From: Comamonas sp. BIGb0124
GTDB lineage: Bacteria; Pseudomonadota; Gammaproteobacteria; Burkholderiales; Burkholderiaceae_C
Assembly: GCF_003752175.1 (NCBI RefSeq)
Contig: NZ_RJVF01000013.1
Location: 124,001-188,000 of the forward strand
Direction: 5' to 3'
Length of the DNA: 64,000 nt
A model generated the notes under the pieces. The model saw nothing but the letters and a program-made list of their open reading frames with translations, did not search any database and was not told the DNA's origin. Below, one piece after another: positions 2,331-24,575 of the stretch. Position 1 is the first letter of the stretch; each line of letters begins with the position of its first letter. The translations under genes and the position numbers were made by a program.

Positions 2331-3923
2331 ATGACAAGCAGGAACTGGAAGAGGGAACGTGCTCAGGAACGCATCCGCGGGTGGTTCAACCAAGTCAGCA
2401 CGGTCGAAATCAAAGAGTATCTTCGAGATACGAATCTGACCGGAATTCGGAGTGGTGTAGCCTATCGCATCGACGGCGTACACCTTTATGTCGACATTCT
2501 CAACCTTGACGAAATGCTTGGAGTGACGGGCTCAGAAGGCGTGCGGGCACACAGTCGCACGCTGCGCTTCCTAGACAGGCACTATCGAGCAGTACGCGAC
2601 ATCTTGAAGGGCGTAGACGCGATCCAGGTGGACTTCCACAATCAGCGGCTTCACGCTGTCATTGCCAAACCCTATGGCAACGAGACCGGCCGAATCCATA
2701 AAGCGGTTGCGACCGCGCAACTAATAATCGATGTACTTCAACGCACGGGGGAGAACAGCAACGACCCGCTGCCAGCGGCTAAAGTGCGGGCAGGCATCGA
2801 CTCCGGCAAGGCTCTTGCCGTCAACAACGGTCGTCGCGGCAATCGCGAGCCGCTTTTCCTTGGCGAGCCAGCCAACCTAGCAGCAAAGCGCTCGGGTGGA
2901 GGCGCCGACACAGGCATTTACATGACCAACACCGCACGTTCGGTTGTGGGCTGGAACACGGTCGACGATGAGGATAAGACAGCGTTGACTAAGGCGCAAA
3001 TCGAAAAATCCGAAGATGTCGCGGATCTACATGTCGCTGCTGATGATGTGGTCATGGACTGGGAAGAGGGTCTCTCCAACCAGCCGCTCGGCTCGTTCGA
3101 ATTCAAGAGGCACACGCCGCCGTTTGCTGACCTCGACTTGGAAACACTAACACCAGGCAATTCTCGACGCCAGGATTCGACGTCGATCTACGCTGACATC
3201 GACGGCTTTACCGCTTACGTGTCTGACAGGATCGATACTGACGACTCGGCCAAAGATGTCGTCCGCGCGCTGCATGTGCTGCGAGCCGAGCTCGATGCCG
3301 TCCTCCACGCAGACTTTAGTGGCCGCAAGATTCGATTCATCGGAGACTGCATACACGGTGTGCTGATCGAGGGGACGTCTCACACAACCGATGATGCTGT
3401 GACAACCAAAAACGCCATGCTTTGCGCAGCTGCTCTACGCAGTAGTTTCGGGGAGGCGATTGCCGTCCTCAAGGAAAAAGGGATCGACGCCGGTGAGCTA
3501 GGCATCCAGATCGGGCTGGAGCACGGTCCGACGGCAATAACCCGGCTGGGGTATAAGGGCGAGCGGACGCGTTGCTGTATCAGTCGCGCCGTGCTGCGCG
3601 CCGAGGACGAGCAGCGTCGTTGCAAGGGCAATGAAACTGCGATTGGCCCGACTACATACAATTGTGCGCCGGAGGCATTCCGCATCTTGTTCAGTGGCAG
3701 TCGGATCCGCTCGGACTTCGACTACGATGAAGCGGTCGACGCACTTGCCGACGAAGCCGACAGCCAAAAAGCAACATCGGCTTCGGCGCTCGCCACCACG
3801 TTGCCGTCGATCCAGCCAGACCGTCTCGGTCGCACCGCAGCATCGGCCACAGCGACGTTCACTCTGCCCGCACAGGCCGCAGGGCCCACGAATCCGAACA
3901 AAGTTCCGGCAGGATTCGCCTGA
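2331..3923 (+). CDS. pycC: Tandem-domain class III nucleotide cyclase (Pycsar-type PycC)
   Basis: A predicted soluble cyclase of 530 aa that should make a cyclic mononucleotide signal, in Pycsar cCMP or cUMP, on phage infection. Two class III cyclase domains are visible. Domain 1 (about 50-200) has D55 (YVDILN), D101 and a substrate/transition-state motif GEPANLAAKR (N182, K186/R187). Domain 2 (about 283-425) has the canonical YADIDGFT metal site (D289) and FIGDC (D339), but its counterpart of the Asn/Arg motif is RCCISR. The two halves may build one composite site. A roughly 50-residue Ala/Thr/Pro-rich tail follows and ends in Gly-Phe-Ala. The stop overlaps the next ATG (TGATG). A cyclase is certain; the nucleotide is inferred from the TIR effector downstream. 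Confidence 0.8.
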   Translation: MTSRNWKRERAQERIRGWFNQVSTVEIKEYLRDTNLTGIRSGVAYRIDGVHLYVDILNLDEMLGVTGSEGVRAHSRTLRFLDRHYRAVRDILKGVDAIQVDFHNQRLHAVIAKPYGNETGRIHKAVATAQLIIDVLQRTGENSNDPLPAAKVRAGIDSGKALAVNNGRRGNREPLFLGEPANLAAKRSGGGADTGIYMTNTARSVVGWNTVDDEDKTALTKAQIEKSEDVADLHVAADDVVMDWEEGLSNQPLGSFEFKRHTPPFADLDLETLTPGNSRRQDSTSIYADIDGFTAYVSDRIDTDDSAKDVVRALHVLRAELDAVLHADFSGRKIRFIGDCIHGVLIEGTSHTTDDAVTTKNAMLCAAALRSSFGEAIAVLKEKGIDAGELGIQIGLEHGPTAITRLGYKGERTRCCISRAVLRAEDEQRRCKGNETAIGPTTYNCAPEAFRILFSGSRIRSDFDYDEAVDALADEADSQKATSASALATTLPSIQPDRLGRTAASATATFTLPAQAAGPTNPNKVPAGFA

Positions 3924-5659
3924 TGTGGTGGTTCATCAGCGATCCAACGCGTCTCCTAGCTGAGCGTGGCGCGATCGATCAGTTGGTCGCGGAAGACATT
4001 GGCATAGAGAACGTCCAATGGGGTGTATTGGGGTCCGACCTCGCCTTGAAGGTGGATGTCGATCTGCGAATCGGCGACAAGGTTCGAGCGGTCACCATGA
4101 CTTACCCACTGATTTTCCCGAATGCACCACCAGTTGTGCGTCCCATTGGGGAAAACACATACTGGGGCGCTCACCAGTACGTCGTCAGCGGTGATCTCTG
4201 CCTTGAGTACCGCGCAGACAACTGGCATCCGGACCTATGCGGTGCCGTAATGCTGCGCAGTGCGTTGAAGCTAATGGCCGCCGATTTGGGTATCACTCAC
4301 ACGTCTGGTTGGGTATTACCGTCGGCGCACAACGTGACGCAAGGTCAACAAATCCGCGGGAGCTTTTACCGGATGAATATGACTACCACCGGCCAAGCCA
4401 AGCTCGCTACTGTGTCAGGAATCCAGCCAATCAAGCTCCACCAGTGCTGGGGCCCGCAAAGTATCATGGTCACGTTAACCACTGTCACAGAACAGGACAA
4501 TACGCAGTGGGTCGATCCAACAGTGCCGACAGCATTCGTCGAGGATGCACGTCTAGAGGGACGGGCTATAGCTATAGCCGCCGACGACGAGCGTCTAAAT
4601 GACATCCAAAACTTCCTCAAGGAGGGTGAGGACAGTCGCGTATTCTGGAGCAAGTTCGTCACGGACCCTATCGCCAACGACGAAGATCGCTGCCTCATGT
4701 TGGTCACGCCGAGAGGAACACGCGCATTCTACGTCCGGCCAGACGGCAGTAGGCCGTATGAGTTCGCACAGATTCCTCCCGACTCTGGCCAACGCCTACC
4801 GACCTACAACGCGCGCCTCGCAGAAAAGACGTTTGCCATCTTGGGCTGTGGCTCCCTCGGCTCCAAGGTAGCCACGACCATAACGCGTAGTGGTGCGCGC
4901 AAGTTCATCCTGATCGACGCGGACGTCCTGAAGCTCGAGAACCTTGTTCGCAACGAACTCGACGCCAAACAAGCAGGTGCGTCGAAAGCGTCTGCCGTTG
5001 CTCAGCGTCTGAAGCGCGTAGCTGCCGGCGTCGATGTAAAGGTGCACAACTTCCTGTTGGGTGGGCAAGAACCCGGTAGCAAGAACGACACGGTGGTACG
5101 AGAAATTGCCAGCGCGGACATCATCGTCGACGCTACGGGCAACCAGGACGTGTTCAACTACGCGGCAGCGGCAGCTAGGCTCAACCAGAAAACGATGTGC
5201 TGGGCACGCGTCTTTGCGGGCGGCTATGGAGGCCTGATTGCCCGCGCACGCCCCGGGCTAGATCCGAATCCGTTCGACGCGCGTGCGATGATCGACCAGT
5301 GGTGCGCTAGGCCCGGGCTTCCCGAACCACCTCAGCCGGAAAAGGACTATGCCTCGCGAACGGAGGAGGGCCCGCCGATGGTTGCTGACGATGCCGACGT
5401 GTCGGCTATCGCCGCACATTTCGCCCGCCTGCTCATCGATGCCGCCATCGGCGGCGACGACTCCGAGTTCGAATGCTCGGCCTACATGATAGGGTTGCGT
5501 AGGGAATGGATTTTCGAGAGGCCATTCGATACTTGGCCGATCAATCTCGGTTCAGGCCGGCTAGAACATACCGCTGAAGTCAACCCCGACGTGCGTGCCG
5601 AGGGCAATAAAGCGCTGCTGGAAATTTTTAGCGCCGTAACGGGGAGAGTGAGCAAATGA
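3923..5659 (+). CDS. E2-E1 fusion, Cap2-like ubiquitin-transfer protein
   Basis: A 578-aa fusion. Residues about 35-125 look like an E2/UBC fold: YPLIFPNAPP, then GDLCLEYR with C93 as likely catalytic cysteine, then NWHP. Residues about 300-525 are a ThiF/E1 adenylation domain with the nucleotide loop LGCGSLGS (307-314), D332/D334 and the N340-L-V-R343 motif; C427, C461 and C518 are candidate E1 thioester cysteines. This is the order of CBASS Cap2, which adenylates the C-terminus of its cyclase and conjugates it to target proteins. It starts within the cyclase stop and ends in an ATGA overlap with the JAB gene, so all three are co-translated. The conjugated protein is inferred to be the cyclase. 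Confidence 0.85.
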   Translation: MWWFISDPTRLLAERGAIDQLVAEDIGIENVQWGVLGSDLALKVDVDLRIGDKVRAVTMTYPLIFPNAPPVVRPIGENTYWGAHQYVVSGDLCLEYRADNWHPDLCGAVMLRSALKLMAADLGITHTSGWVLPSAHNVTQGQQIRGSFYRMNMTTTGQAKLATVSGIQPIKLHQCWGPQSIMVTLTTVTEQDNTQWVDPTVPTAFVEDARLEGRAIAIAADDERLNDIQNFLKEGEDSRVFWSKFVTDPIANDEDRCLMLVTPRGTRAFYVRPDGSRPYEFAQIPPDSGQRLPTYNARLAEKTFAILGCGSLGSKVATTITRSGARKFILIDADVLKLENLVRNELDAKQAGASKASAVAQRLKRVAAGVDVKVHNFLLGGQEPGSKNDTVVREIASADIIVDATGNQDVFNYAAAAARLNQKTMCWARVFAGGYGGLIARARPGLDPNPFDARAMIDQWCARPGLPEPPQPEKDYASRTEEGPPMVADDADVSAIAAHFARLLIDAAIGGDDSEFECSAYMIGLRREWIFERPFDTWPINLGSGRLEHTAEVNPDVRAEGNKALLEIFSAVTGRVSK

Positions 5660-6255
5660 TAGAGATTCAATTGACACTGGAATGCGCCGCCAAGCTACTG
5701 CGTGAGCTTCGTCGCGCGGGGACACATGAGATAGGTGGCATCCTAGTAGCCGAGCACGTTGCCAACAGCATTTTTCGTATCGTTGACTTGTCTGTGCAAC
5801 GTAACGGAGGCTCTTTTTCAAGGTTTTCTCGAGATGCTAGTCTACACAAGGGATTTATGCGTCGATTCCACAACAAGACTAGACATCAATATAGTAGGTA
5901 TAACTATTTAGGCGAGTGGCACTCTCACCCGAGCTTTCCTGCGTTGCCAAGCTCCAAAGACATCCTTACGATGTGCTCGCTACTCACAGCGCCAGATCAA
6001 GTGGCAAATTTCCTCGTGCTGCTGATAGTCAAACGATCGATCGCCGGTAAGCTTGAGGCATCTGCCCACGCGTTCGCACATGGCCTCACGCCAATTCGCG
6101 TGCCGTTGGCCATATACGGGCAAGACGACGCGATCACCGAGATTACCCCCTCTACCCAGCTATCTCTTCGCCAAAAACTTGCTCTGCGGGCAAACAACGG
6201 CCATTCTCGAGGGTCAACGCGTGATGCTTCGTTGAAGCAAACAATTTACTGGTAA
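5656..6255 (+). CDS. JAB/JAMM metallopeptidase, Cap3-like
   Basis: A 199-aa protein with a complete JAMM zinc-protease signature: the upstream glutamate in HEIGGIL (E25), then W-HSHP (H89, H91) and S99-x2-D102 ten residues on. In CBASS the matching enzyme, Cap3, cleaves conjugates made by Cap2 and so limits or recycles modification of the cyclase. The gene overlaps the E2-E1 gene by four bases. The C-terminal 60 residues lack recognisable features. Codon use and base composition are markedly less GC-rich than the surrounding chromosome. Confidence 0.85.
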   Translation: MIEIQLTLECAAKLLRELRRAGTHEIGGILVAEHVANSIFRIVDLSVQRNGGSFSRFSRDASLHKGFMRRFHNKTRHQYSRYNYLGEWHSHPSFPALPSSKDILTMCSLLTAPDQVANFLVLLIVKRSIAGKLEASAHAFAHGLTPIRVPLAIYGQDDAITEITPSTQLSLRQKLALRANNGHSRGSTRDASLKQTIYW

Positions 6256-6412
6256 AAAAGCGCGATGTCTATTTAACAAGAACTGCGCTCATCGTCACAA
6301 TGGATAAAAAAGAAACCTGCTATACGCTTTCTCTCTATGGGTCTAGAATCTAGCTATCCCCTATTAAAATCAGCGCTAGCACTGATTCCTTAAATGAAAA
6401 GAAAGAAGAAAA

Positions 6413-7324
6413 ATGATTGAAAGATTTTCTGGAGAAATGGGAAAACGCCTCCTCATTGAAGCGTTCTTAGGCCAGAAATTAGTCCGTGGAGCCAATGACC
6501 TGGCCCTTGCCTTGGCTGACGTGGCCGAGCTGATTTCGGTCAAAGCTGGAACCATTATTATCCAGCAGGATGCCACCGACAACGATATGTATTTTATTAT
6601 CACCGGGGCATTCGACATTGTCGTCAACAATACACCAATACGTAGACGTTTTCCAGGTGATTCCATCGGAGAAATGGCAGCCGTGGAGCCGATTCAGAAA
6701 CGGTCTGCTACCGTAAGTGCCGCTGAAGATTCCCTAGTTGCAAAAATTACTGAACACCAACTAAATGAACTCGGCACCCGCTATCCTGGCATTTGGCGGC
6801 GAATGGCGCAAGAGCTCTCAAAACGCCTAATCGAGCGCAATCACTTTGTGAACGCCAAGCGCGAAAAAATTCGCGTGTTTGTGATTTCGAGCGCTGAAGC
6901 GATTCCTGTTGCGAACTTGCTCCAATCCATGTTTGCACATGACAAGTTCCTGACTGTTCCGTGGAACCAAGGAGTATTCAGAGTTGCGAATTATACGATT
7001 GACGATATCGAACGTGAATTGGATCAATGCGATTTTGCCGTGGCGATCGCGCATGGCGACGATGTTACCACTGCTCGTGGCACACAATGGCCTGCACCGC
7101 GCGATAATGTAGTCTTCGAACTCGGCCTATTTATGGGACGTCTCGGACGTAAACGCGCAATCCTAATGGAGCCGCGCGGCGAGGGCGTTAAGCTTCCGAG
7201 CGATATGGCTGGCGTTACGACGATATCATATGTTTATGACGAAAAAAATGATTCAGAAGCAAAGTTTGGCCCAGCTGCGACTGCACTCCGTAAACATATC
7301 ATGAACCTTGGCACTATCTCTTAA
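6413..7324 (+). CDS. pycTIR: Cyclic-nucleotide-binding TIR effector (PycTIR-like)
   Basis: The 303-aa protein has two parts. Residues about 15-145 form a cyclic-nucleotide-binding domain with a phosphate-binding cassette FPGDSIGEMA...RSATV (80-101). Residues about 154-300 are a predicted nucleotide-binding TIR-like domain with RVFVISS and RDNVVFELGLFMGRLG, where E236 is the likely catalytic glutamate. In Pycsar the TIR effector binds cCMP or cUMP and depletes NAD+, stopping growth of the infected cell. A 157-base AT-rich gap separates it from the JAB gene, so it may have its own promoter; a GAAAGAAG ribosome site precedes the ATG. Confidence 0.9.
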   Translation: MIERFSGEMGKRLLIEAFLGQKLVRGANDLALALADVAELISVKAGTIIIQQDATDNDMYFIITGAFDIVVNNTPIRRRFPGDSIGEMAAVEPIQKRSATVSAAEDSLVAKITEHQLNELGTRYPGIWRRMAQELSKRLIERNHFVNAKREKIRVFVISSAEAIPVANLLQSMFAHDKFLTVPWNQGVFRVANYTIDDIERELDQCDFAVAIAHGDDVTTARGTQWPAPRDNVVFELGLFMGRLGRKRAILMEPRGEGVKLPSDMAGVTTISYVYDEKNDSEAKFGPAATALRKHIMNLGTIS

Positions 7325-7624: not shown

Positions 7625-8110
7625 TTAGCAGCGCCCTGATTCCATCTCCATCACCCCCCGATACCGCCCCCCCTCCACACTATCCGGACTCATCAACGCA
7701 ATCGCACGATCCACACAATCCCGCGCAGCATCAAGCGTGCTGCTCATCACCGCATCCGACGCGTGGCTATCGCGATCCGCTGTGGCCGTCATGACATCCA
7801 GACTCGCCAGAATCCCAGCCGCTTGCATGATCTCTTCCTTTGCCGTCCCTGGCACCAGATTTACACCACGCCGCGAATACGTCACGACTCGATCAGCAAC
7901 TTTCGCCGCATGCTGAATCATCGTCATGAGGTGCTCGTGCGCAAGGAGCAATTCGTTCTCCTCTGCCCCCTCAAAGAAGTGGCCAATCACGAATAGCGTG
8001 CCGGTCAGGCGATTCAGATCCGCTTCAATCAATGCACACAGATCGATGTCGGAGAACTGATGGGCCGCAGGCTCAGCCGATTGAGGTTGAGATTGGGTGG
8101 AACCGGTCAT
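7625..8110 (-). CDS. Unknown protein, first copy of a duplicated RNA-led locus
   Basis: A 161-aa, mostly helical soluble protein of unknown function, beginning with a Gln/Ser-rich stretch and continuing FSDIDLCALIEADLNRL. It is roughly 80-85 percent identical by eye to the protein encoded at 20970-21446, differing mostly at the N-terminus and last 15 residues. Its ATG overlaps the stop of a 50-aa ORF (ATGA), and both lie behind a structured leader RNA. The arrangement resembles phage immunity operons in which a C4-type RNA represses a small coupled ORF and the gene behind it. No catalytic motif, signal peptide or membrane segment is visible. Confidence 0.75.
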   Translation of the reverse strand: MTGSTQSQPQSAEPAAHQFSDIDLCALIEADLNRLTGTLFVIGHFFEGAEENELLLAHEHLMTMIQHAAKVADRVVTYSRRGVNLVPGTAKEEIMQAAGILASLDVMTATADRDSHASDAVMSSTLDAARDCVDRAIALMSPDSVEGGRYRGVMEMESGRC

Positions 8111-8259
8111 GCTGCACCTCCCGTTTGGAAGGCGCAGACAATCATCGTGGCGCCGCTGTGCGCGTAGACGATGAGTCGACTGGGGGAATGAAGATCGGCC
8201 TGTTCAGGCGGATCTGGCACAGCACGATGGCTGGCATTAAAGACGACGAACGTCATCAT
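8107..8259 (-). CDS. 50-aa ORF coupled to the downstream unknown gene
   Basis: A short reading frame of 50 aa starting MMTFVVFNASHRAVPDPP, with AGGAG seven bases before its ATG and a TGA overlapping the ATG of the next gene. The second locus has a matching 49-aa ORF with the same N-terminal 18 residues apart from one substitution, the same ribosome site and the same ATGA overlap. Such conservation argues it is translated. It probably opens the message for the downstream gene, like the coupled ORF in C4-regulated phage operons; a separate function is unknown. Confidence 0.7.
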   Translation of the reverse strand: MMTFVVFNASHRAVPDPPEQADLHSPSRLIVYAHSGATMIVCAFQTGGAA

Positions 8260-8297
8260 GGTCGGGCTCCTGTTTGAGACCAGAGACCACTTCGATG

Positions 8298-8500
8298 CGT
8301 TTCTACGCGCAACGGGGTGGACGGGATGTTAGAAACACGTAAACAGCCGTGCGGCCAGCCTTACGGACTGACCCATCCCGCCCGTAATCTTGGGGCGTGC
8401 GCGAACGCACCACCACCGAATATGGACGTGACAAAACCTCACTTACGGGGAGGTTGCACCGCTGCTTACAGGTGTTTCTACGCACCGGCCCTTTCGGGTT
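8298..8500 (-). ncRNA. Structured leader RNA, C4-antisense-like (copy A)
   Basis: Read on the minus strand, this leader has, in order: a CCCGAAAGGG tetraloop hairpin (8489-8498); a segment a' (8471-8485) whose TAGAAACAC part is complementary to 8330-8338; a hairpin ACCUC/GAGGU (stems 8450-8454 and 8436-8440) followed by UUUUGUCACG; a hairpin UUACGG/CCGUAA (8382-8387, 8361-8366) whose loop carries b' (GGGCGGGAUG), complementary to b at 8319-8328 with one G-U pair. Targets a and b lie just before the 50-aa ORF. This matches the two-antisense-segment plan of phage C4 RNAs. The family name is my inference; an 88-aa frame crossing it is probably not a gene. Confidence 0.6.
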
Positions 8501-8591
8501 AAGGCGATTGTGGCACGGGCCAAAGAGGCTGGCAACGACCAGCATTGGCGCTATTCGCCGGGCTTGCAACGCCTGAAGCTGATGGGTGTCG

Positions 8592-20969: not shown

Positions 20970-21446
20970 CTAGTGCCGCGCTTCCAACTCGAGCATGCCG
21001 CGATAACGCACGCCCTCCGCGCTGTCCGGGCTCATCAGCGCAATGGCACGATCGACACAGTCACGCGCCGCATCGATCGTGCTGCTCATCACGGCATCGG
21101 ATGCATGGCTGTGCCGATCCGCCGTGGCCGTCATGACATCCAGACTGGCCAGAATGCCAGCCGCCTGCATCACCTCTGTTTGCGCAGTGCCGGGTATGAG
21201 GTTCGCGCCATGCTGCGAGTAGGTCACCACACGATCGGCGACTTTTGCCGCATGCTGAATCATCGACATGAGGCGCTCTTGAGCGACGAGCGACTCAGCC
21301 TCTTCAGCGCCTTCGAAGAAGTGGCCGATGACAAAAAGCGTACCGGTCAGGCGATTCAGATCGGCCTCGATCAAGCCACACAGATCGTTGTCAGAGAACG
21401 TCTGGACGCCGGGCGCCGTGGATTGAGGTGGGGTGGAAGGGGTCAT
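20970..21446 (-). CDS. Unknown protein, second copy of the RNA-led locus
   Basis: 158 aa from the ATG that overlaps the preceding small ORF (ATGA); an upstream in-frame start would add 17 unlikely residues. The sequence FSDNDLCGLIEADLNRLTGTLFVIGHFFEGAEE and the region to IALMSPDS match the copy at 7625-8110 almost throughout, while the Pro/Ser/Thr-rich N-terminus and the tail differ. The function is unknown. Protein, small ORF and leader RNA are all conserved between the copies, so the unit was duplicated or acquired twice as a block. Confidence 0.75.
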   Translation of the reverse strand: MTPSTPPQSTAPGVQTFSDNDLCGLIEADLNRLTGTLFVIGHFFEGAEEAESLVAQERLMSMIQHAAKVADRVVTYSQHGANLIPGTAQTEVMQAAGILASLDVMTATADRHSHASDAVMSSTIDAARDCVDRAIALMSPDSAEGVRYRGMLELEARH

Positions 21447-21592
21447 GCTGCGCCTCCCAGGTGGAAAGCGCAGGCGACCATCGTGGCGCGGGTGCACGCG
21501 GGGATGAGTCGGCTGGGGGAAAAGAGATCGCCCTGTTTGGGCGGATCCGGCACAGCGCGATGGCTGGCATTGAAGACGACGGCTGTCATCAT
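21443..21592 (-). CDS. 49-aa ORF coupled to the downstream unknown gene
   Basis: The short frame begins MMTAVVFNASHRAVPDPP and ends HLGGAA, parallel to the 50-aa ORF at 8107-8259. The AGGAG ribosome site, ATG-ATG start and ATGA overlap with the next gene are the same. The central 20 residues vary more than the ends. It is likely the translated opener of the unit controlled by the leader RNA. Confidence 0.7.
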   Translation of the reverse strand: MMTAVVFNASHRAVPDPPKQGDLFSPSRLIPACTRATMVACAFHLGGAA

Positions 21593-21630
21593 GGTCGAGG
21601 CTCCTAACTGAGTCTGCAGACCACTCGCAA

Positions 21631-21833
21631 CGTTTCTACGCGCAACGGGTGGACGGGATGTTAGAAACACGCAGTTAGACGTGCGGCCAGCCTTACGGAC
21701 AGACCCATCCCGTCCGTAATCGCGAAGAGTCCAGCATGGACCCTCACAAAACATGGGCGTGACAAAACCGCTCTAACGGGGCGGTATGGCCGCTAACTGA
21801 CGAGGTGTTTCTACGCACCGGCCCTTTCGGGTT
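21631..21833 (-). ncRNA. Structured leader RNA, C4-antisense-like (copy B)
   Basis: The same element order as copy A: CCCGAAAGGG hairpin (21822-21831), a' (21804-21818) complementary to 21662-21670, hairpin ACCGC/GCGGU (21081-independent copy at 21067 is not meant; stems are 21781-21785 and 21767-21771) plus UUUUGUCACG, then UUACGG/CCGUAA (21714-21719, 21693-21698) with b' in the loop pairing 10 of 10 bases with b at 21651-21660. The second stem reads ACCGC/GCGGU here and ACCUC/GAGGU in copy A, a compensatory change. Loop sequences vary freely. This supports a functional RNA. Confidence 0.6.
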
Positions 21834-22148
21834 GAAGTGATTGTGGCACGTGCGGGGGTGACTGACAACGTCTGCTTAGGCCGAGCCCAAACTGCGCCGA
21901 GGGACTGAAACTGGCTGTAGTCTCTGAGCAGCTATTCCGAGACAATCAAACTTAACGAATAAATCGAATTTAACCAACTGTTCAAACTGATCAGATGGTG
22001 TTGCAAAGCGTCGCAGCCATTTGCCCGTTGGCCCTGTCCCTGACCGGGCGCAAGCCTTCTCATACATTGAACCGGCCCCGCATCTCCTGCTTCGGTAGCA
22101 AGGTCAACGGCCACAAAGCGCCCTGAAGCGCCACTGATGAGGTCCCCC

Positions 22149-22631
22149 ATGAAAACTCTTTCGACACCATCGGCCCCGACGACTCGTCACCGTTCAACCA
22201 ACACCCCAAGTGCAGTTGCTCTTCCGTCGCCCTATGTGTCAGCGACTCAGACCAAGGCCATGATGGCCGGCAGCTTGGCGGCCCGGATGAACCGCCTGGA
22301 AGCCAATGACATGCTCAGCACCGATGGCGCAGCCGATCTGGTGGGTACAACCCGGGTGACGATCAACGCGTGGATTGCCAAAGGGCGGGCCATCGGATTG
22401 ACCCAAATGCGGCGTGGTTTCAAGCTGCCCAGTTGGCAGTTCGAACCGGCGATGTGGGATGCCGTCCCCCAGCTTTCCAAAGCTCTGGACACCCGCGAGG
22501 GCTGGGCACTGCTCACTTTCCTCGAGACGCCATTGGGCGCTCTGGGTGGCCGTACACCGCGTCAGGCCATCGAACAAGGTCATTTGGCGCGTGTGGTTGA
22601 ACTGGCCGCTGTCCACGCAGCTTCGATTTGA
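22149..22631 (+). CDS. Xre/MbcA/ParS-type antitoxin-like protein
   Basis: A 160-aa protein. The middle has an excisionase-like helix-turn-helix (LSTDGAADLVGTTRVTINAWIAKGRAIGL), followed by RGFKLPSWQFEP and, at the end, FLETPLGALGGRTPRQAIEQGHLARVVELAA, the toxin-binding signature of the Xre/MbcA/ParS antitoxin family. Partners are normally RES-domain NAD+-degrading toxins, but none follows. It may be an orphan antitoxin or work with the next two genes. The chosen ATG has GAGG six bases upstream. Confidence 0.8.
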   Translation: MKTLSTPSAPTTRHRSTNTPSAVALPSPYVSATQTKAMMAGSLAARMNRLEANDMLSTDGAADLVGTTRVTINAWIAKGRAIGLTQMRRGFKLPSWQFEPAMWDAVPQLSKALDTREGWALLTFLETPLGALGGRTPRQAIEQGHLARVVELAAVHAASI

Positions 22632-22662
22632 TATCCTTGCACACCGGATCCTCGACTTCCCA

Positions 22663-23079
22663 ATGAACGTCATCACCAGTCGCTACCGCGGGTCAGAGAA
22701 GCACAAGAACCGGCCAGCGCACGGCGCCAAAGGAACGCTATGCCCTGAGTGGACCCACTCAACGCCGATGGGTGGTCTTAAAAACGATCCATTCAGCCAC
22801 GCCTGGTTGCAGACTGAAGCTCACCGGATTTTTGAAAGCTCACAACCCCACCCCGACGGCGAACAGCGCCGCTATGCAACGTCAAGAGGGATCGCTTTCG
22901 AGGCCAAACCATCCAACGACGGTTATTGGCATGGTTATCCGATTCCTTGGGAAGGCGTGCCCACCGACCTCCTTGATCGCTGGCTCGATGAAGGTGTCGT
23001 CACTAACCGTGATATCAAAAGGCACCGAAAACATGGAAAAAACAACATGACATGGGCTCTAGATAGCGACTCCCGATGA
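22663..23079 (+). CDS. Unknown 138-aa protein coupled to an ImmA/IrrE-type gene
   Basis: A basic, Trp- and His-rich protein (MNVITSRYRGSEKHKNRP...). Motifs that look constrained are GTLCPEWTH, RRYATSRGIAFEAKP and WHGYPIPWEGVP. I know no family for it. It begins 31 bases after the antitoxin-like gene and overlaps the metallopeptidase gene by four bases (ATGA), so the last two are certainly co-translated. The longer frame from 22414 lies over the antitoxin gene and is rejected. Confidence 0.6.
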   Translation: MNVITSRYRGSEKHKNRPAHGAKGTLCPEWTHSTPMGGLKNDPFSHAWLQTEAHRIFESSQPHPDGEQRRYATSRGIAFEAKPSNDGYWHGYPIPWEGVPTDLLDRWLDEGVVTNRDIKRHRKHGKNNMTWALDSDSR

Positions 23080-24575
23080 CTGGCATGCAGACATTTGGCG
23101 ATCCCGATCGCTTCGAGATTTCGGCTCGGTGGGTCCAAGATCAGGAGCCCAGGGATCGTTTGCCCAAAGATCATGGGTGGTCGATGGGCGAACTCTGCAT
23201 AAAGGTTGGCGGAGTCACCCTCACCGAGCATCGCATTCACGGTGAGTCAAAGGAGGGCATCCAATGGTACCTGGGACCCGTGGTTGCTTGGCTGCTCAGC
23301 CAGTGGAAATGGCTGATGCATGAAGAAGCCTATACCTGGAAAACGCATTCGGGAGAATCCGCAGCCTTCACGGTAGAAGCCGATCTCGAGCGATACATGG
23401 CATCGGCATATCCCAGCGACAGACTGGTCTACAAGCATATCCGTGCGTGGTGGATGAGGCACGCTTTGCGCTCGGCCGATCCAAGCGCTTTGCTTCCCTC
23501 CATCGTCATTCGCCGGGTCGAGGACACCATCGAAGTGTCTTGGCTGGACAAGCAGCCCGACTTTTCTCCAGAAGGCCATGAGCTGAATCTCAACCCGGGC
23601 GTGGCACTCTTCCCAGTCGAAGAAGTCGCAAAGCCGCTTTGGGAATTCCTGCAATGGGCGACGACGTCTGCGCAACCGGTTACACGAGATGATCACACGC
23701 AGATACAAAGCTTACGCAAACGGCTCGAGGCAACCCAACAGACCCAATCCGTCGAACTCGAAGCTGCTTACATGGCAGACGATATCTGTCACGAGGTGAT
23801 GGACAAGATTCGCTCGAGTCATTGGATACCCAACGGCAAGGCGTTGACCGACATTCCAGTGGTCACTCAATTCGACATGCCCGTACTGATGTTCGGCGGC
23901 TTGAATGTCGACATCGGCACGAGCGATGTGCGAAAACTATTCGACGTCCTCGTGCAACAGCACCGAGGAACGGACGACAAAGAGCTCGCAGAGCTTGTTT
24001 CTTCGCCATCCATCTACGAGTATCTACAGCCCTACACACACGGCTACGAGCTGGCCTATCAGATACGAGAAGCTCTCCAGATCGATACGGATGTCGCATT
24101 TGTGGATGTGGAGAAGCATCTCGAGCGACTGGGCATCGCCATACAAGAGATCGATCTAAAAACCAACAGCGTTCGCGGCGTTGCCATTGCCGGCGAAGAT
24201 TTCTTGCCGACGATCGTGATCAACACGAGCCACAAATTCAACAACAGCGCCCGTGGCCGACGTTTTACGCTTGCGCACGAGTTCTGCCATATCCTGTTTG
24301 ATCGTTCGCGTGCAAAGCGTCTCTCACACATCAGCGGACCTTGGACATCGGGGCGCGTTGAAAAGCGCGCCAACGCCTTCGCCGCCATGTTTCTGGCCAC
24401 ACCCCACGCCTTGGAACGGGCTTTGAATTCCGTATCGAGTCGTGACAGGAAAGTGATCAATAAGCTTGCCGAAACATTCGGCATTGGAACAGGTGCGCTA
24501 CTCGAGCACTTGCGCAACTTCGACCTCATCTCGGAAGACGATTTTCAAGCAATCAGTGGCTACCGATACCATTGA
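23076..24575 (+). CDS. ImmA/IrrE-family metallopeptidase with long N-terminal domain
   Basis: A 499-aa protein. The last 170 residues carry the COG2856/ImmA-IrrE zinc motif RRFTLAHEFCHILFDR (HEFCH) and the downstream EKRANAFAAMFLAT segment with the expected acidic ligand. The first 300 residues form an uncharacterised region (WSMGELCIKVGGVTLTEHRI, YLGPVVAWLLSQWKWLMHEE). ImmA-type enzymes cleave Xre-like repressors in mobile elements and stress responses, so the antitoxin-like protein two genes upstream is a possible substrate, a proposal from position only. Confidence 0.85.
   Translation: MTGMQTFGDPDRFEISARWVQDQEPRDRLPKDHGWSMGELCIKVGGVTLTEHRIHGESKEGIQWYLGPVVAWLLSQWKWLMHEEAYTWKTHSGESAAFTVEADLERYMASAYPSDRLVYKHIRAWWMRHALRSADPSALLPSIVIRRVEDTIEVSWLDKQPDFSPEGHELNLNPGVALFPVEEVAKPLWEFLQWATTSAQPVTRDDHTQIQSLRKRLEATQQTQSVELEAAYMADDICHEVMDKIRSSHWIPNGKALTDIPVVTQFDMPVLMFGGLNVDIGTSDVRKLFDVLVQQHRGTDDKELAELVSSPSIYEYLQPYTHGYELAYQIREALQIDTDVAFVDVEKHLERLGIAIQEIDLKTNSVRGVAIAGEDFLPTIVINTSHKFNNSARGRRFTLAHEFCHILFDRSRAKRLSHISGPWTSGRVEKRANAFAAMFLATPHALERALNSVSSRDRKVINKLAETFGIGTGALLEHLRNFDLISEDDFQAISGYRYH

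Follow-up and report, generated by a model that had tools for sequence, protein, structure and literature searches.

The window analysed here, a stretch of 64,000 nucleotides from Comamonas sp. BIGb0124 (contig NZ_RJVF01000013.1, positions 124,001 to 188,000), holds two copies of a structured leader RNA at 8298-8500 and 21631-21833. Both lie on the minus strand, and each precedes a small open reading frame (ORF1) and a main one (ORF2; Table 1). The copies share 88% mean column identity across the leader, the small ORF and the start of the main ORF, and their parts follow the same 5' to 3' order, i.e. a -10-like box, a short G+C hairpin, a hairpin of the form GGUG...CACC containing site a1, site b1, a covarying stem leading into UUUUGUCACG, a variable stretch, the core, site a2, site b2 joined to GGAG, ORF1 and ORF2. 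An earlier note on this DNA had described two copies sharing hairpins, with ACCUC/GAGGU in one stem replaced by ACCGC/GCGGU, two antisense segments (a' and b') whose targets lie right before a small ORF, and a protein of no known family as the controlled gene; each of these features was recovered. The a' segment, identical in the two copies, pairs with its downstream target in both, whilst the b' loop GCUGUUUA pairs with AAACAG and the adjoining GAG in copy 1, and UCUAACUG with CAGUUAG and the adjoining GAG in copy 2. In copy 1, the duplex of b1 with b' includes a G-U pair. To that note the present analysis adds the strand, the upstream sites a1 and b1 as a set and four more copies in this genome.

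Table 1. Positions in the window of the leader parts and downstream genes of both copies.
Feature	Copy 1	Copy 2	Strand	Remark
Predicted -10 box of leader promoter (CACAAT)	8507..8512	21840..21845	-	putative promoter
a1 hairpin	8471..8486 (GGUG-CGUAGAAA-CACC; a1 = 8474-8481)	21804..21819 (a1 = 21807-21814)	-	a'/a1 complementarity
b1, upstream site complementary to b'	8461..8468 (UAAGCAGC)	21792..21799 (CAGUUAGC)	-	
Covarying stem and following run	8425..8454 (ACCUC/GAGGU, then UUUUGUCACGUC)	21756..21785 (ACCGC/GCGGU, then UUUUGUCACGCC)	-	
Antisense core	8320..8382	21652..21714	-	three-way junction
b' loop	8340..8347 (GCUGUUUA)	21672..21679 (UCUAACUG)	-	
a'	8329..8336 (GUUUCUAA)	21661..21668 (GUUUCUAA)	-	
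a2, downstream target of a'	8298..8306 (GUAGAAAC at 8299-8306)	21631..21639 (GUAGAAAC at 21632-21639)	-	
b2 fused to Shine-Dalgarno	8267..8275 (AAACAGGAG)	21601..21610 (CAGUUAGGAG)	-	
Small ORF1	8107..8259 (50 aa)	21443..21592 (49 aa)	-	short relative of leader-following ORF1 family
Main ORF2	7625..8110 (161 aa, helical, no known family)	20970..21446 (158 aa)	-	copy 1: start overlaps ORF1 stop

ORF1 and ORF2 overlap by ATGA in both copies, an arrangement that would fit translational coupling of ORF2 to ORF1. ORF1 is shorter here than the 65-95 aa ORF1 found behind the leader in many genomes, and has no match in PHROGs. ORF2 matches no family in Pfam, NCBIfam or PADLOC; its predicted structure is an all-helical bundle (pLDDT 80) with no informative match in the PDB. 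This genome contains seven close copies of ORF2 and four distant matches, and five of the copies carry the leader; no convincing leader was found upstream of the other paralogues (L150-L155), a paralogue without an RNA leader lies near a prophage-like region (L053:15385-15939, plus strand), and no ORF2 relatives were detected in the one congener searched or in the named genomes. Homology of ORF2 to the small helical ORFs of other elements was not detected (hhalign probability <1%). By origin, ORF2 may have a phage or satellite function that needs low expression. In the surroundings, copy 1 adjoins a Pycsar-like defence operon (2331-7324, plus strand) with a PycC cyclase, E1-E2, JAB and a cNMP-binding TIR effector (CAP12/PycTIR). 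Beside copy 2, the plus-strand stretch 22137-24575 contains a weak match to Xre/MbcA-type antitoxins, a 138-aa ORF and a protein of 499 aa whose Peptidase_M78 domain is IrrE-like.

Conserved structure and a two-part pairing code

The b' segment forms the loop of the second hairpin in a three-way junction and a' is the single strand that follows it; together they show complementarity to two sets of sites, a1-b1 on the 5' side of the core and a2-b2 on its 3' side. Both window cores give this junction when folded alone, with z of -3.3 and -3.4 against dinucleotide shuffles. The earlier note had staked its reading on support for the stems from further homologues, and the helices do covary in the alignment of 56 members: standard pairs make up 96.1% of cells, two-sided changes occur in 16 of the 20 pairs, and the covariation score is 0.386, compared with 0.121 after shuffling and at most 0.078 after sliding, although these counts lean towards the model because the alignment was fitted to it. 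RNAalifold predicts the same three helices from the same alignment. The closing stem leads into CACC in 52 of the 56 members. Upstream, a five-pair stem stands just 5' of a TTTTGTC-like run in 51 of the 56, with 254 of 255 cells paired (196 after shuffling), a count biased upward since the arms were located by best match; a -10-like hexamer lies ~26-32 nt 5' of the a1 hairpin in most homologues.

The four sites were searched within 250 nt upstream and 300 nt downstream, and in most members a1 lies near -100, b1 near -86, a2 at +12 and b2 at +42. Positions 2-7 of b' are paired with b2 in all 300 cells (50 members with 40 different loops), where b2 was fixed by the Shine-Dalgarno sequence, two bases of which are counted into it, and where members with other loop lengths, two decayed cores and members without GGAG/GGAA in the searched stretch were left out. 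Among the 50 members, positions 4 to 7 each show several pair types. Between a' and a1, 360 of 384 cells are paired (48 homologues). When each member's own partners were compared with swapped ones, duplex energies gave z of -13.6 (b'-b2), -15.7 (b'-b1), -11.2 (a'-a2) and -12.9 (a'-a1), in permutation tests that ignore relatedness; descent alone would hardly explain why pairing is complete in columns that each use three or four pair types. In this genome, the own target is the best in every row for all six copies, the next best being at least 2.9 kcal/mol weaker. The same a' occurs with different b' loops in three of the copies, and where b' is nearly equal a' is different; therefore, no a/b combination occurs twice, and each copy is its own best target.

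Distribution, proposed mechanism and alternatives

A covariance model (R1) and genome-wide search of the kind the earlier note had proposed were carried out: the model, built from seven cores, located 59 places, spread over 35 of the 301 genomes from this family (28 of 141 genera), including six places in Comamonas sp. BIGb0124 and ten in one relative. A strict DNA pattern matched among the named genomes those of Delftia, Comamonas, Acidovorax, Ottowia, Ideonella, Aquabacterium, Hydrogenophaga, Extensimonas and Paenacidovorax, as well as two IMG/VR viral contigs, of which the one inspected holds a complete element; blastn of the leader against phage records gave no match. The leader belongs to a subfamily not described before, present in many Comamonadaceae-type bacteria. 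Three cores appear to have their first hairpin duplicated in tandem with the junction retained (L096:601-704, L099:2501-2604, L100:601-704). In Delftia tsuruhatensis, two cores without matching a1, b1, a2, b2 or coupled ORF (L088:601-681, L092:3095-3172), each ~600 nt upstream of an intact element, are decayed copies or decoys. The note's placing of the leader in a chromosomal setting holds for the copies here, but the leader's relatives also occur in a prophage-like region (copy L003), on viral contigs and before phage-type genes, and phage descent of the leader system is therefore likely.

We consider it highly probable that the new subfamily is a C4-type antisense leader RNA of phage or satellite descent, kept on a small chromosomal gene family. 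Two findings weigh against this reading, the missing RF01695 match and the several ORF2 paralogues that lack a leader. In the mechanism we propose, a promoter upstream of a1 would produce a transcript in the order a1-b1-stem-core-a2-b2-ORF1-ORF2, from which the 63-nt core is probably excised, with RNase P cutting its 5' end; release by RNase P is suggested by the tRNA-like closing stem, with CACC behind it, and by the precedent of P1 C4. Once freed, or while still within its own transcript, the core would pair through a' with a2 and through b' with b2. Since b2 runs into the Shine-Dalgarno sequence, this pairing would occlude it and leave ORF1 untranslated, and the overlapping ORF2 would be silenced along with it. 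While the transcript is still being made, the upstream sites a1-b1 probably capture the core and so tune the amount of free core. With an a/b combination of its own for each copy, paralogues and incoming relatives would therefore be controlled separately, in a manner similar to phage immunity groups.

The same anatomy could be read as an attenuator-like switch acting only in cis, in which the core stays in the mRNA and toggles between a1-b1 and a2-b2, with the stem and U-run perhaps serving as a weak terminator. The competition of both site pairs for one core within a single molecule and the position of the covarying stem before TTTTG are in agreement with such a switch; however, the copy-specific a/b combinations and the tRNA-like ends of the core are in keeping with an RNA that is released and specific, the C4 core is processed (PMC5320573, citing Hartmann 1995), and sRNA-Xcc1, discussed below, has been observed as a free 88 nt RNA (PMC2996969), so that we regard a purely cis-acting switch as unlikely, though worth keeping in view. 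That the leader is a prophage relic, presently functionless in the chromosome, appears quite improbable: the shortened ORF1 and the two decayed cores in Delftia would suit a relic, but a/b pairing and the Shine-Dalgarno sequence are intact in all six leaders of this genome despite their sequence differences, and the reading frame of ORF2 is uninterrupted in each of the five leader-bearing copies. We give still less credence to the view that the RNA acts in trans on many host mRNAs, a role described for sRNA-Xcc1, for which numerous targets have been predicted (PMC2996969, PMC12189769); the element's own flanking sites are matched almost perfectly, in step with changes in the loop, and this leaves distant targets unnecessary.

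Relation to C4 and sRNA-Xcc1

In phage P1, a leader of C4-type design silences the antirepressor. The window leaders resemble the C4 RNA of P1/P7 (RF01695) in the order a1-b1-core-a2-b2, in the three-way junction, whose second hairpin presents b' in its loop and is followed by a' as a strand, in the position of b2 at the ribosome-binding site of a small ORF before the target gene, in the U-rich motif upstream before GUC/GUGCC and in the ACC after the closing stem. According to PMC5320573 and PMC12197685, P1/P7 C4 is antisense to a ribosome-binding region and is processed by RNase P. The processed C4 RNA has a length of ~77 nt. Fourteen C4 loci, taken as a positive control, gave z of 8.2, 4.7, 6.2 and 6.4 in a test for the four sites, for which the query regions were chosen manually following the layout of the model and only loci with a clear downstream ORF were used. 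The anatomy and covariation, and their likeness to true C4, strongly support the C4 design that the earlier note had recognised, but membership of the Rfam family is not supported: the scan that the note had suggested gave no RF01695 match to either copy up to E 10, and R1 does not match C4 loci. The model of c4-2 RNA (RF02944), a named C4 relative in Rfam, does not match the window copies, and at gathering thresholds Rfam finds nothing in the window leaders. The sequence and helix lengths of the new leaders do not fit the Rfam C4 model and, unlike in C4, the gene controlled here is no recognisable antirepressor. Apart from the six leaders, this genome also has two true RF01695 C4 RNAs (G000:C7:168650-168734, L052; G000:C6:251861-251942, L051). 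The C4-like Group 1 sRNAs of Acinetobacter baumannii are similar in their many chromosomal copies, variable a' and apparent processing out of a longer transcript, but unlike the new leaders they match RF01695; the accessible text of the source (PMC5320573) mentions no cis targets for them.

The nearest described family is sRNA-Xcc1 (RF02221), which occurs in 61 of 398 genomes of the phylum. It was the only informative Rfam match under permissive settings, over short stretches of the minus strand (30.2 and 33.9 bits, E values 2e-3 and 3e-4), short of its gathering cut-off of 53 bits; the RF02221 model finds four copies in this genome, and R1 in turn matches 15 of 25 RF02221 loci at E <0.03. These weak but reciprocal matches support homology of the two cores. 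As in the new leaders, a1, b1, a2 and b2 are all present in sRNA-Xcc1, its members giving z of 8.7, 3.7, 5.4 and 9.6 in the four-site test (24 loci, handled as for C4). In contrast to the new leaders, RF02221 RNAs carry AUACAA in a first hairpin arm of greater length and stand before antirepressor or SymE genes: among the genes right behind ten selected members of the family are SymE (two), Bro-N (three), P22_AR_N, Rha (two) and KilA-N. At L006 and L026 the SymE toxin gene lies directly 3' of the sRNA-Xcc1 leader, whose b' matches the SymE start. In integron cassettes of Xanthomonas, previous work has located sRNA-Xcc1 upstream of symE and suggested a regulation divergent from SymR (PMC12444791), and Xylella genomes list both C4 and sRNA-Xcc1 without linking the families (PMC12189769). 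Our literature search, outside which lay subscription papers such as the 2011 sRNA-Xcc1 paper, found none joining sRNA-Xcc1 to C4.

A widespread Rfam family, treated as a trans-acting, virulence-linked sRNA, would thereby gain a mechanism with exact target sites, which suggests a way in which the SymE toxin beside sRNA-Xcc1 could be restrained without SymR. The leaders also offer a natural set of mutually specific antisense switches, usable to test the divergence of pairing codes. On balance, we lean towards placing C4, sRNA-Xcc1 and the new subfamily together in one large class, whose members are self-targeting antisense leaders with an a/b code specific to each copy. From phage immunity, this class would have spread to toxins (SymE, also within integron cassettes) and to chromosomal genes present in several copies, for which the two-part pairing code separates paralogues in one cell.
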